From Candidatus Tectimicrobiota bacterium (GTDB taxonomy: Bacteria; JACPUC01), in contig JACPUC010000006.1 of NCBI GenBank assembly GCA_016192455.1, positions 1 through 64,000 on the forward strand: a DNA stretch of 64,000 bases, in the 5' to 3' direction. Positions within the stretch are counted from its first letter, which is position 1. Every line of letters starts with the position of its first letter. Shown in pieces: positions 41,701 through 42,853 of the stretch. The translations under genes were made by a program, and so were the position numbers. The notes beneath the pieces were generated by a model, which ran no database searches, was not told where the DNA came from, and saw only the letters and a program-made list of their open reading frames with translations.

Positions 41701-42853
41701 CGAAGGAGCGCACCAGCGGCATCCGCGCCCCGCACGCCGGGTTGGGGCATTTCACCGTGCGCGCCCAGAGCCAGGCGATGACGGTGAGTTCCTGTCCCAC
41801 GTAGGACTTCAGGTCTGGCCGCTCGGCGGCCATGGCGGGCGTCACCTTCACCTTCGGGTAGAGGTGGCCGATGCGGCGCTCCGCCTCGTCGCGCATCCAA
41901 TGGCCGTAGTGGCGCACGTCTTCGGCCAGGCCCTGGGCGCCACGCCAGGGGGAAGGCAAAAGAGAAGAAGGCGTCCTTGCCGGGAGCGCGGGCGTCTCGC
42001 CCGCTTCGTCATGCGGGCGGGACGCCCGCGCTCCGAAGAGAGGGGATTGCGTCTGCGGATTGACCGGCGGTCTGCCGGCGAATTTCGGCGGAATCTCGAT
42101 GAGGGCCTTGGTGATGAGGACGGCGACGGGGTTGAGGTCGCTGGCGTAGGCCCGCAGGCCGAGGCGCTGCGCCTCGAGGGGGATGGAGCCGCCGCCGCAG
42201 AAGGGGTCGAGGACGGGCGGCGCGTGCTCCGCAAGGAAAGCGAGGACCACGTCCGGGGACGCCTGGCGGGTGATGAAAGGTAAAAGCGCGGGGGGCGGGC
42301 AGGATGCCCGCGCTCCAACGTCTCCTTTTTCCTTCAACCGCAGCGCCACGCTGCGGGCGATCTCGGCGCGGGCCTGCTCCAGGACGCGCTCGTTATTCGT
42401 GTTCTCCCACAACACCAGCTCCTCGATGAGGAGGCCAGCCATGATCGTCTTGCCCGCGCCTGGATCGTCGGCGAGAAGGAAGCGCAGAGGCTGGCGCGGC
42501 AGCATTTCGCCATAGACGGCGGTGATCTGGTGCGGCAGCGGCTCGATGAGCGAGGTGTGGATGGCAAGCAGAGGATCGAAGAGGTGCGCCAGGCTGATGC
42601 GCTTGGCCTCGGAAACGAGGCGCAGCATGGCGCCGTCGGCGTCGAAGCTCCATGGCCGGCCGGCCTCGACAATCTCGAGGGTGGGTTCGCGGTCGCGGTA
42701 GAGGAGTTCGTTGCCGAGCTTGCCGGCGGCGTCCTTGTAGGTCAGCTCGACCACGTTGGCGCCATGCCACTTCGCGTCGATGACCGTGACGTGGGAGTTC
42801 GGCAGCACGCCGCGCACGACGGCGCCCTGCTTGAGCTCTTCGAGGCGCGCCAT
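38702..42853 (-). CDS. Chimeric ORF: SNF2-helicase N-terminus fused to DUF1156 DNA methylase with inserted RAYT, 1,383 aa
   Basis: Four parts in one frame. (1) Residues 1-145 match the start of an SNF2-type helicase (HVTVIDAKWHGANVVELTYK, ELLYRDREPTLEIVEAGRPW) up to Walker A ADDPGAGKT (nt 42446-42472). (2) At about nt 42415 it becomes DUF1156 methylase from LVLWENTNNERV, with SAM motif DPFCGGGSIPLEA (about 42170-42208) and a zinc ribbon CPNPACG/CLAC. (3) nt 40259-41197 is a REP/RAYT insertion. (4) The methylase resumes at AYADAVATYLAFAVDKGADY with catalytic DPPY (39917-39928) to the end. The start ATG 42853 has GAGGAG nine bases upstream. REP sequence is translated at about ten further points. 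Whether the product is active is unknown; both methylase motifs are intact. Confidence 0.8.
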   Translation of the reverse strand: MARLEELKQGAVVRGVLPNSHVTVIDAKWHGANVVELTYKDAAGKLGNELLYRDREPTLEIVEAGRPWSFDADGAMLRLVSEAKRISLAHLFDPLLAIHTSLIEPLPHQITAVYGEMLPRQPLRFLLADDPGAGKTIMAGLLIEELVLWENTNNERVLEQARAEIARSVALRLKEKGDVGARASCPPPALLPFITRQASPDVVLAFLAEHAPPVLDPFCGGGSIPLEAQRLGLRAYASDLNPVAVLITKALIEIPPKFAGRPPVNPQTQSPLFGARASRPHDEAGETPALPARTPSSLLPSPWRGAQGLAEDVRHYGHWMRDEAERRIGHLYPKVKVTPAMAAERPDLKSYVGQELTVIAWLWARTVKCPNPACGARMPLVRSFALSTKSGKEAWVQPVVEGKSEKETFDAGGTPALRFEVKTGKGTPPEPPKIGRGAKFRCLACDQKADDQHIKDEGTAKRMGAQLMAIVAEGQRGRVYLPASEDQIEVARTATPPWAPDEELPFDPRAIWCTLYGLKTYRDLFTPRQLVALTTFCELVGEARQRVYRDACRRSAGVPPALSERSAQGSVGVPPASPFRDPSSAVPPAPRATDTPAREGEKDSNAGGPPALREPRGWHSRGYLPHFDGGEIVQSITFRLADALPARLLDAWREELRSLPPSEAATERGRRIDTHLDRGEGAAWLADRRVAAIVEEALLHFDGERYRLHAWVVMPNHVHACLSPLPGWRLSDILHAWKSFTAKEANRILGRGGAFWQEEYFDRYIRDERHFAAVCAYVEENPVNAGLCAAPRAWPFSSAAPRGSAGVPPARESRRGAGVPPAVNEEAPSGARRKEEGHEAGAETAPKEGGKEAGGTPALPDLPLHQGGAGPQAYADAVATYLAFAVDKGADYWTGICSWHTSRETMSHTFARQAIPMVWDYAECNPFSSSTGNWIACVDWVWEAIPSINNSPQAESIQLDSTSAINSSGAPLITTDPPYYDNIGYADLSDFFYVWLRRAIGEVFPDLFSTLLVPKAQELVATPYRFDGSKRKAQAFFETGLGKAFDLMRQSQCPDVPMTLFYAFKQAESSASKDSNGDIVSLLASTGWETMLEGLLKAQFSITGTWPMHSEMVNRSVGLGTNALASSIVLVCRPRPAEAPMTSRRDFLNALTRELPEALKNLQKGSIAPVDLAQAAIGPGMAVFSRYARVLEADGSPMRVRTALALINQTLDEVLAEQEAEFDADTRWALAWFEQFSMEEGPYGVAETLSKAKNTSVQGLVEAGILRAKAGKARLLRRQELRADWDPGADARLTVWEVTHYLIRRLLDEQGSEEQAANLLRQLGARASRPHHEAARDLAYRLYVICERKKWADAALDYNALVIAWPHITRLAGQRAPTQQELL
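40451..41008 (-). mobile_element. REP-associated tyrosine transposase (RAYT) inserted in frame
   Basis: A Y1/HUH transposase of the TnpA-REP group, about 185 codons, from GWHSRGYLPHFDGGEIVQSI to the end near RAWPFSSA. The HUH motif is MPNHVHACL with the two His codons at 40697-40705. The motif AYVEENPVNAGL carries the candidate catalytic Tyr, and FWQEEYFDRYIRDERHF precedes it. It has no start codon or ribosome site of its own that I can see, so it would be made only as part of the methylase chain. REP palindromes flank it on both sides (40425-40446 and 41017-41038). Confidence 0.85.

Follow-up and report, generated by a model that had tools for sequence, protein, structure and literature searches.

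How did the start of a helicase come to be read in one frame with a DNA methylase? The question is raised by an open reading frame (ORF) of 1398 open codons (positions 42898–38702, minus strand) in a 64,000-nucleotide stretch of bacterial DNA, hereafter called the window. The original prediction for this stretch, made from its letters alone, held that a deletion had joined two neighboring genes of a restriction-like system. The same frame also holds a RAYT transposase domain between REP palindromes, and our analysis covers both features.

An ORF that joins hmaA to hmaB

The two parts of the ORF were matched separately to the profiles HmaA and HmaB, and each part matches its own profile. Residues 16–166 correspond to positions 1–151 of the 1176 in the PADLOC HmaA profile (E 2.6e-63), and residue 16 is the ATG at 42853. 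This agrees with the view that the frame opens with the N-terminus of an SNF2 helicase and runs as far as Walker A. The switch from LLIEEL to LVLWENT had been placed exactly, in that the helicase and methylase matches meet at about 42413–42430. From there the frame was expected to continue inside a DUF1156 methylase. It does continue in the interior of the methylase (HmaB positions 90–958), but the DUF1156 domain itself is missing; a Pfam scan of the fused ORF gave no match to PF06634 (DUF1156). The loss of the methylase start was foreseen correctly, as the HmaB match begins at profile position 90. So was the loss of the rest of the helicase: Beyond the 151 HmaA positions, no other hmaA piece was found by a profile search of the 4.46-Mb assembly. 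The sole second match was a generic SNF2 stretch, of a kind obtained in all 14 control genomes.

Codon composition is consistent with translation on both sides of the join. The hmaA part has a GC3 of 0.88 and the hmaB parts range over 0.66–0.97, with GC2 at 0.38–0.50, and this signature suggests that one frame is coding throughout. The hmaA-hmaB fusion is confirmed as real in the sequence.

Table 1. Features of the hmaA-hmaB-hmaC region of the window
Feature	Coordinates	Strand	Remarks
hmaA fragment	42401..42853	-	N-terminus through Walker A (GAGKT); HmaA profile 1-151/1176; start ATG 42853
hmaA/hmaB junction (IEEL)	42413..42430	-	In-phase stretch encoded by both parent genes
hmaB fragment 1	41192..42430	-	HmaB profile 90-454; DPFCGGG motif present; DUF1156 domain missing
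REP in hmaB	42295..42316	-	In frame, reads GARASCP
Inverted REP pair in hmaB	41983..42034	.	In frame, GARASRP ... AGETPAL
REP in hmaB	41602..41623	+	In frame, AGGTPAL on coding strand
REP-flanked RAYT block inserted in hmaB	40271..41191	-	In frame, between HmaB profile 454 and 461
Three REPs, N-terminal side of RAYT	41017..41193	.	41172-41193, 41127-41148, 41017-41038
RAYT domain	40448..41011	-	NF047646, 85.9 bits (genome search); HUH motif NHVH, WQ, YVEENP
Three REPs, C-terminal side of RAYT	40276..40446	.	40425-40446, 40389-40410, 40276-40297
hmaB fragment 2	38723..40270	-	HmaB profile 461-958; DPPYYDN motif present
REP near hmaB C-terminus	38863..38884	-	In frame, GARASRP
Four REPs between hmaB and hmaC	38463..38673	.	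At 38463, 38508, 38608, 38652
mini-hmaC, 224 aa	37750..38424	-	HEPN_Swt1 (aa 11-133) and last 64 HmaC positions (aa 159-222)
REP in mini-hmaC	38223-38244		In frame

Elsewhere the two genes are indeed separate neighbors. We looked for the same fused order in 45 loci that have an hmaA start and an hmaB core on the same strand, and none of them carries both in one ORF. Of these loci, 43 have an hmaA gene of 1145–1331 aa and two have shorter ones of 192 and 412 aa; the spacing between the hmaA end and the hmaB frame ranges from −1570 to 5468 bases. No close relative of the window was found in its phylum, where the search covers one genome, and among 21 genomes three others gave partial matches only.

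The sequences of relatives suggest how the two genes became joined. At the junction position, hmaA relatives encode LLIKEL or similar (codons ATT AAG GAG CTG in locus L043), whereas hmaB relatives encode IIEEL/IIEDL or similar (ATC GAA GAG CTG in L042), and the window reads CTC ATC GAG GAG CTG GTG. Each parent gene would thus have carried an in-phase I-x-E-L at the junction, a microhomology deduced from relatives that are 50–71% identical. The most likely cause of the join is a deletion, as originally proposed, and it would have taken place at this short homology. It would have removed about 1,000 hmaA codons, the intergenic stretch, and about 90 HmaB profile positions. Since the partners are similar in phase and both are read in that phase, such a deletion would keep the frame open without any selection.

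A probable decayed Hma locus

Hma (helicase, methylase, ATPase) is named in PMC8565338 and is renamed Type-1 BREX-related in PMC12839542, which describes a methylase with a helical DUF1156 start and an ATPase that in many cases bears a HEPN RNase fused at its N-terminus. The window resembles Hma in its gene content and order (hmaA-hmaB-hmaC on one strand, identical in L040–L043), in the HEPN on HmaC, and in its matches to all three profiles. Unlike Hma, its hmaA and hmaB form one ORF, and a RAYT lies inside hmaB. The third gene is reduced to a short frame, mini-hmaC, in which the HEPN_Swt1 domain scores 132 bits and the ATPase core is absent. HEPN-bearing HmaC relatives are 1115–1145 aa long, and HEPN is carried by 3 of 15 HmaC C-terminal frames. 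The internal deletion of mini-hmaC is in frame and lies at a similar in-phase stretch; a second deletion would have removed the hmaC core. The single 224-aa frame that is left keeps an RRM-like C-terminal end and the motif RNQWAH, presumably the R-x4-H motif of HEPN.

Where Hma has a full-length SNF2 helicase, an N6-methylase with a DUF1156 start, and a DUF499 AAA+ ATPase (often with an N-terminal HEPN), the window retains 151 of 1176 HmaA positions, HmaB positions 90–958, and HEPN_Swt1 with only the last 64 HmaC positions. Given the absence of both cores, helicase and ATPase, and the loss of the DUF1156 start, we conclude that the locus would no longer function as Hma.

It could be argued that what remains is a streamlined and still useful system, in which a methylase is tethered by the helicase N-terminal domain and a HEPN RNase is joined to an RRM-like domain. 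Every join is in frame, over 1398 and 224 codons, and the methylase motifs DPFCGGG and DPPYYDN are kept along with the HEPN motif. However, the DUF1156 start has been lost together with its conserved HPSTLHLWWARRPLAAAR stretch (a consensus of relatives), both the helicase and the ATPase cores are gone, the in-phase similarity accounts for open frames without selection, and the fused form is unique when compared with the 45 loci. These facts make a streamlined system highly improbable.

An assembly artefact is another explanation that must be weighed. The fused ORF and the shortened hmaC would then be chimeric joins, made from the reads of two strains or from incomplete coverage. The source is a draft assembly of 31 contigs that is 88.19% complete, the two gene-internal losses adjoin each other, and REP repeats are dense in the locus. 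Even so, we judge an artefact unlikely. The junctions contain short similarity only and no REP, and such similarity is shorter than the words on which assemblers join. Moreover, composition is even across the join, the remaining hmaA is nowhere else in the assembly, and chimeric joins would leave the RAYT insert unexplained, as this insert recurs in independent assemblies. REPs were also considered as mediators of both deletions, an idea that was dropped since neither junction has a REP.

The reading that we prefer, and regard as probable, is that of a decayed Hma/Type-1 BREX-related locus that carries an in-frame REP-RAYT-REP unit in hmaB. Taken alone, the fusion most likely reflects ordinary decay of a defense locus and is of low interest. 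It is the nested, recurrent transposase, more than the fusion, that deserves follow-up.

Just upstream of the Hma remnant are a tRNA-Gly gene (44123–44197) and a piece of a phage terminase small subunit (Terminase_4, 36.6 bits, 43520–43960). The presence of these two features suggests that the region is an integration hotspot.

A RAYT domain inside the methylase

The window RAYT is the better of two RAYT matches in the genome. It has the HUH motif, the Trp, and the catalytic Tyr of this family, and its catalytic residues are intact as read from the sequence. Its motifs (Table 1) may place it close to subclass 2.4 (group 4), for which the published signature is NH[IFV]H, WQ, and YIxNNP together with in-frame REPs. 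REP palindromes flank the domain, three per side, inside the ORF. The RAYT does not stand alone as a gene bounded by a start and a stop codon but is nested in the 1398-codon frame. GC3 in the RAYT part is 0.91, versus 0.88 in the hmaA part, so that the transposase looks coding in the methylase frame. Translation would make it a segment of the methylase polypeptide. No intein was revealed by the Pfam scan of the fused ORF.

AlphaFold models of window residues 199–1398 and of the protein from locus L038 have medium confidence, with mean pLDDT values of 62.0 and 68.9, respectively. In both, the RAYT is better predicted than the low-confidence linkers on either side of it and occupies a loop that connects two helices. 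Foldseek searches with both models returned RAYT-type folds first, yet no match had E < 0.001. The top match in each case was the RAYT structure 4er8 (E 7.4e-3 for the window, 1.1e-2 for L038), which is also the best match in the PDB for a RAYT alignment (A1) at the sequence level (8.3e-13).

Read from the sequence, the REP palindrome combines GGAGC with a 7-bp stem around a TCC loop, and it contains a stop codon in none of the six frames. The whole genome has 38 REP matches. Sixteen of them (allowing ≤3 mismatches) are in the window, all within 38223–42316, where 11 are in the fused ORF, one is in mini-hmaC, and four are intergenic. In the reading that we prefer, the REP-RAYT-REP unit would propagate as a mobile element, and the lack of stop codons in any frame, together with flexible REP-encoded linkers that tether the RAYT, may explain how it survives inside genes.

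RAYTs nested in hmaB of other bacteria

Relatives were collected by a contig scan with the full fused ORF, from which 80 loci were kept. This set is biased toward RAYT carriers, because the query itself holds a RAYT. Seven of the loci have an in-frame RAYT in hmaB (L035, L036, L037, L038, L039, L044, and L088). Searches with the HmaB profile alone matched 21 of 301, 37 of 392, and 18 of 398 genomes in three groups. Among the loci examined, five genomes of the first group (G021, G022, G024, G025, and G132) and two of the third (G027 and G717) have nested RAYTs, and the second group has none; L044 belongs to the second group, with its contig outside the matches scored. In the order of G024 (L038, Methylobacter), 27 of 287 genomes match alignment A1, and of 33 places listed six are nested in hmaB and one (L248) is terminal, with the RAYT at the C-terminus of a methylase frame. 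Plasmid records yielded one weak RAYT match (37% identity) and no nested case.

The insertion point that we call site 2 falls each time, in unrelated genomes, in one and the same loop of hmaB, which measures 54 aa between anchors without a RAYT versus 254–355 aa with one. Inserts in L035, L037, and L223 have a REP at the start and an inverted REP at the end. The frames of L044, L088, and also L170 (G132) end soon after the insert. At L036 (7729–12021), one hmaB frame of 1431 codons contains two different RAYTs at two sites.

These loci bear on whether the RAYT might be a gene translated on its own, sharing the methylase frame only by chance. A start codon is indeed available in some copies: In L035 an ATG precedes the RGYLPH motif by seven codons, and the window has a TTG and a GTG 60 and 51 codons upstream of its GYLPH motif. 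In contrast, no ATG, GTG, or TTG lies between the REP or insert start and the RAYT motif in L036 (first copy), L037, L038, L039, L044, or L088, and in L044 the closest such codon is an ATG belonging to hmaB, 18 codons upstream. The frame also runs on into hmaB except for the early ends in L044 and L088. An independent gene is therefore a very doubtful explanation.

Not every interruption of hmaB is of this type. Genes in L161/L175 (G049) and L200 (G400) are broken by apparently ordinary transposase genes, as judged by eye, unlike the in-frame RAYTs. About 180–190 extra residues without RAYT similarity are present at the first hmaB insertion site in L157/L178 (G079). The inserts of G079 and G049 were considered as RAYTs and rejected.

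RAYTs in other host genes

In the phylum of G026 (L044, Planctomycetota), 51 of 280 genomes match alignment A1. Fifteen of 30 loci examined there were judged nested (L265, L270, L271, L273, L274, L276, L279, L283, L284, L285, L287, L290, L291, L292, and L293), although for L265, L274, L290, L291, and L293 this judgment depends on a single side or on a frame that is truncated. L265 is the same locus as L044, and L270 is apparently the same as L105, with identical flanking sequence.

Hosts other than hmaB include essential genes. In L105 (7646–11272) and L276 (1–2853), the RAYT is in frame in alaS, both times just before the ELCGGTH motif, and TIGR00344 is matched in L105 in two stretches around it. 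Five Verrucomicrobia-type genomes (L107–L111) carry it in frame in ispG; TIGR00612 is split into two stretches in L108, and alignment indicates the same arrangement in L107 and L109–L111. The RAYT in L271 (439–2787, minus strand) is nested in the purine biosynthesis gene purH, with AICARFT_IMPCHas in two stretches. A FabA/Z-like dehydratase is occupied at one site in seven genomes, with two FabA stretches in L279, L283, and L287 and one in L284, L285, L291, and L292; L291 has masked bases after the RAYT. The RAYTs of this host form one clade with weak support (66).

Methylases other than HmaB are also hosts. MmeI domains are on both sides of the RAYT in the MmeI-like L092, whereas in the MmeI-like L290 a methylase domain is seen after it only, and in L274 an N6/N4 methylase domain is seen before it only.

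Selection and descent of nested RAYTs

Residues H103, H105, W142, and Y163 are invariant in all 22 aligned RAYTs, nested or free. By the Nei-Gojobori method, dN/dS for the nested RAYTs of L038/L039 is 0.071, versus 0.190 for hmaB. For L038/L035 and L039/L035 the RAYT values are 0.078 and 0.100 and the hmaB values 0.107 and 0.098, these two distant pairs being near saturation. The RAYTs in ispG give 0.078–0.337 in ten pairs, where the highest value (L110/L111) is above the rest. FabA/Z-like pairs are near synonymous saturation and were left out. For nested RAYTs elsewhere than in the window, dN/dS is thus mostly near 0.1. Together, the invariant catalytic residues and the low dN/dS of these pairs of relatives indicate that nested RAYTs are maintained at the protein level.

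Purifying selection and intact catalytic residues might equally be expected if the RAYT were a working part of a defense methylase, for example, a HUH nickase recruited as an effector. The repeated occurrence in DNA methylases (hmaB, MmeI-like, and N6/N4) fits with such a role. Nevertheless, the same kind of transposase is present in alaS, ispG, purH, and the FabA/Z-like gene, most hmaB genes are without a RAYT, and the RAYT travels with REPs. A function within the methylase is therefore quite unlikely.

The trees indicate that carriers are scattered among hmaB genes. On an hmaB tree of 116 rows, built without the insert by a quick method with SH-aLRT support only and including several long branches and some partial rows, RAYT presence requires nine changes, seven of them forced by well-supported branches. 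On a 31-row tree of hand-picked carriers and near non-carriers, in which the tested groups were picked after seeing trees, the seven site-2 carriers are not one hmaB clade (p-AU 1.96e-7), and neither are the hmaB genes of L035, L038, L039, and L223 (p-AU 1.96e-8). Yet the RAYTs of these same four loci group together (SH-aLRT 90) on a 61-row RAYT tree, where the site-2 label needs four changes, of which two are forced. Scattered hosts with grouped RAYTs point to repeated arrival, recombination between hmaB genes, or clean loss. Related RAYTs may thus have entered this one loop more than once, may have recombined, or may have been cleanly lost, and the data do not separate these possibilities.

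Relation to known mobile elements

The window RAYT resembles the REPtron/RAYT (TnpA-REP) elements near subclass 2.4 in having the NHVH, WQ, and Y motifs, flanking inverted REPs, and REPs that leave frames unbroken. It differs from them in that its reading frame is that of a host enzyme, of which it forms an internal segment; among the nested hmaB copies examined, most contain no separate start codon inside the insert. According to PMC6006769, subclass 2.4 REPs are inserted without breaking frames, REPs also occur within RAYT genes with no loss of frame, and RAYT-family proteins longer than expected were treated as fusions or annotation errors and excluded. PMC3733652 describes REPs that lie within ORFs. 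These intragenic REPs and the Rickettsia palindromic elements (PMC3733652) are likewise short in-frame palindromes in unrelated genes, whereas here the gene has taken up a whole transposase domain, not the palindrome alone, and the sites recur.

Inteins and homing elements are also in frame, at conserved sites, scattered on the host-gene tree, and able to enter essential genes. Unlike these elements, the RAYT inserts lie in loops and seemingly stay in the protein, and no splicing is proposed. Our search of the literature, apart from bioRxiv and most subscription journals, found no description of RAYTs embedded in frame within host enzymes, which is weak evidence of novelty. Searches by term within PMC2817692, PMC8266576, and PMC3116915 likewise gave no report of in-frame nested RAYTs.

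REP-RAYT units could be unspliced, translated, site-preferring, homing-like elements. As inner domains, they would enter the same loops of defense methylases and essential enzymes repeatedly, would be kept active by selection, and would be kept in frame by the stop-free palindrome. The window would represent a late stage, in which the host system decayed while REPs multiplied nearby. We put this forward tentatively, as a real possibility that falls somewhat short of being probable. To our knowledge, RAYTs look domesticated, and their autonomous movement is unproven.

Nested RAYTs bear on the persistence and spread of REP elements and RAYTs. A transposase embedded in the reading frame of an essential or defensive enzyme would not easily be lost by frameshift without a cost to the host, and recurrence at the same site on a scattered host tree makes movement testable. 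There is also a warning for annotation, as filters against fusions and annotation errors would discard such nested proteins.

A segment of high synonymous identity in ispG

The synonymous identity of ispG between L111 and the four others is 0.50–0.82 in most windows of the host gene, versus 0.78–1.00 at codons 480–640, which comprise the second half of the RAYT and the right flank. The segment looks recently exchanged, although another constraint could account for the pattern. Just upstream, synonymous identity is likewise high at codons 280–320 and 360–400.
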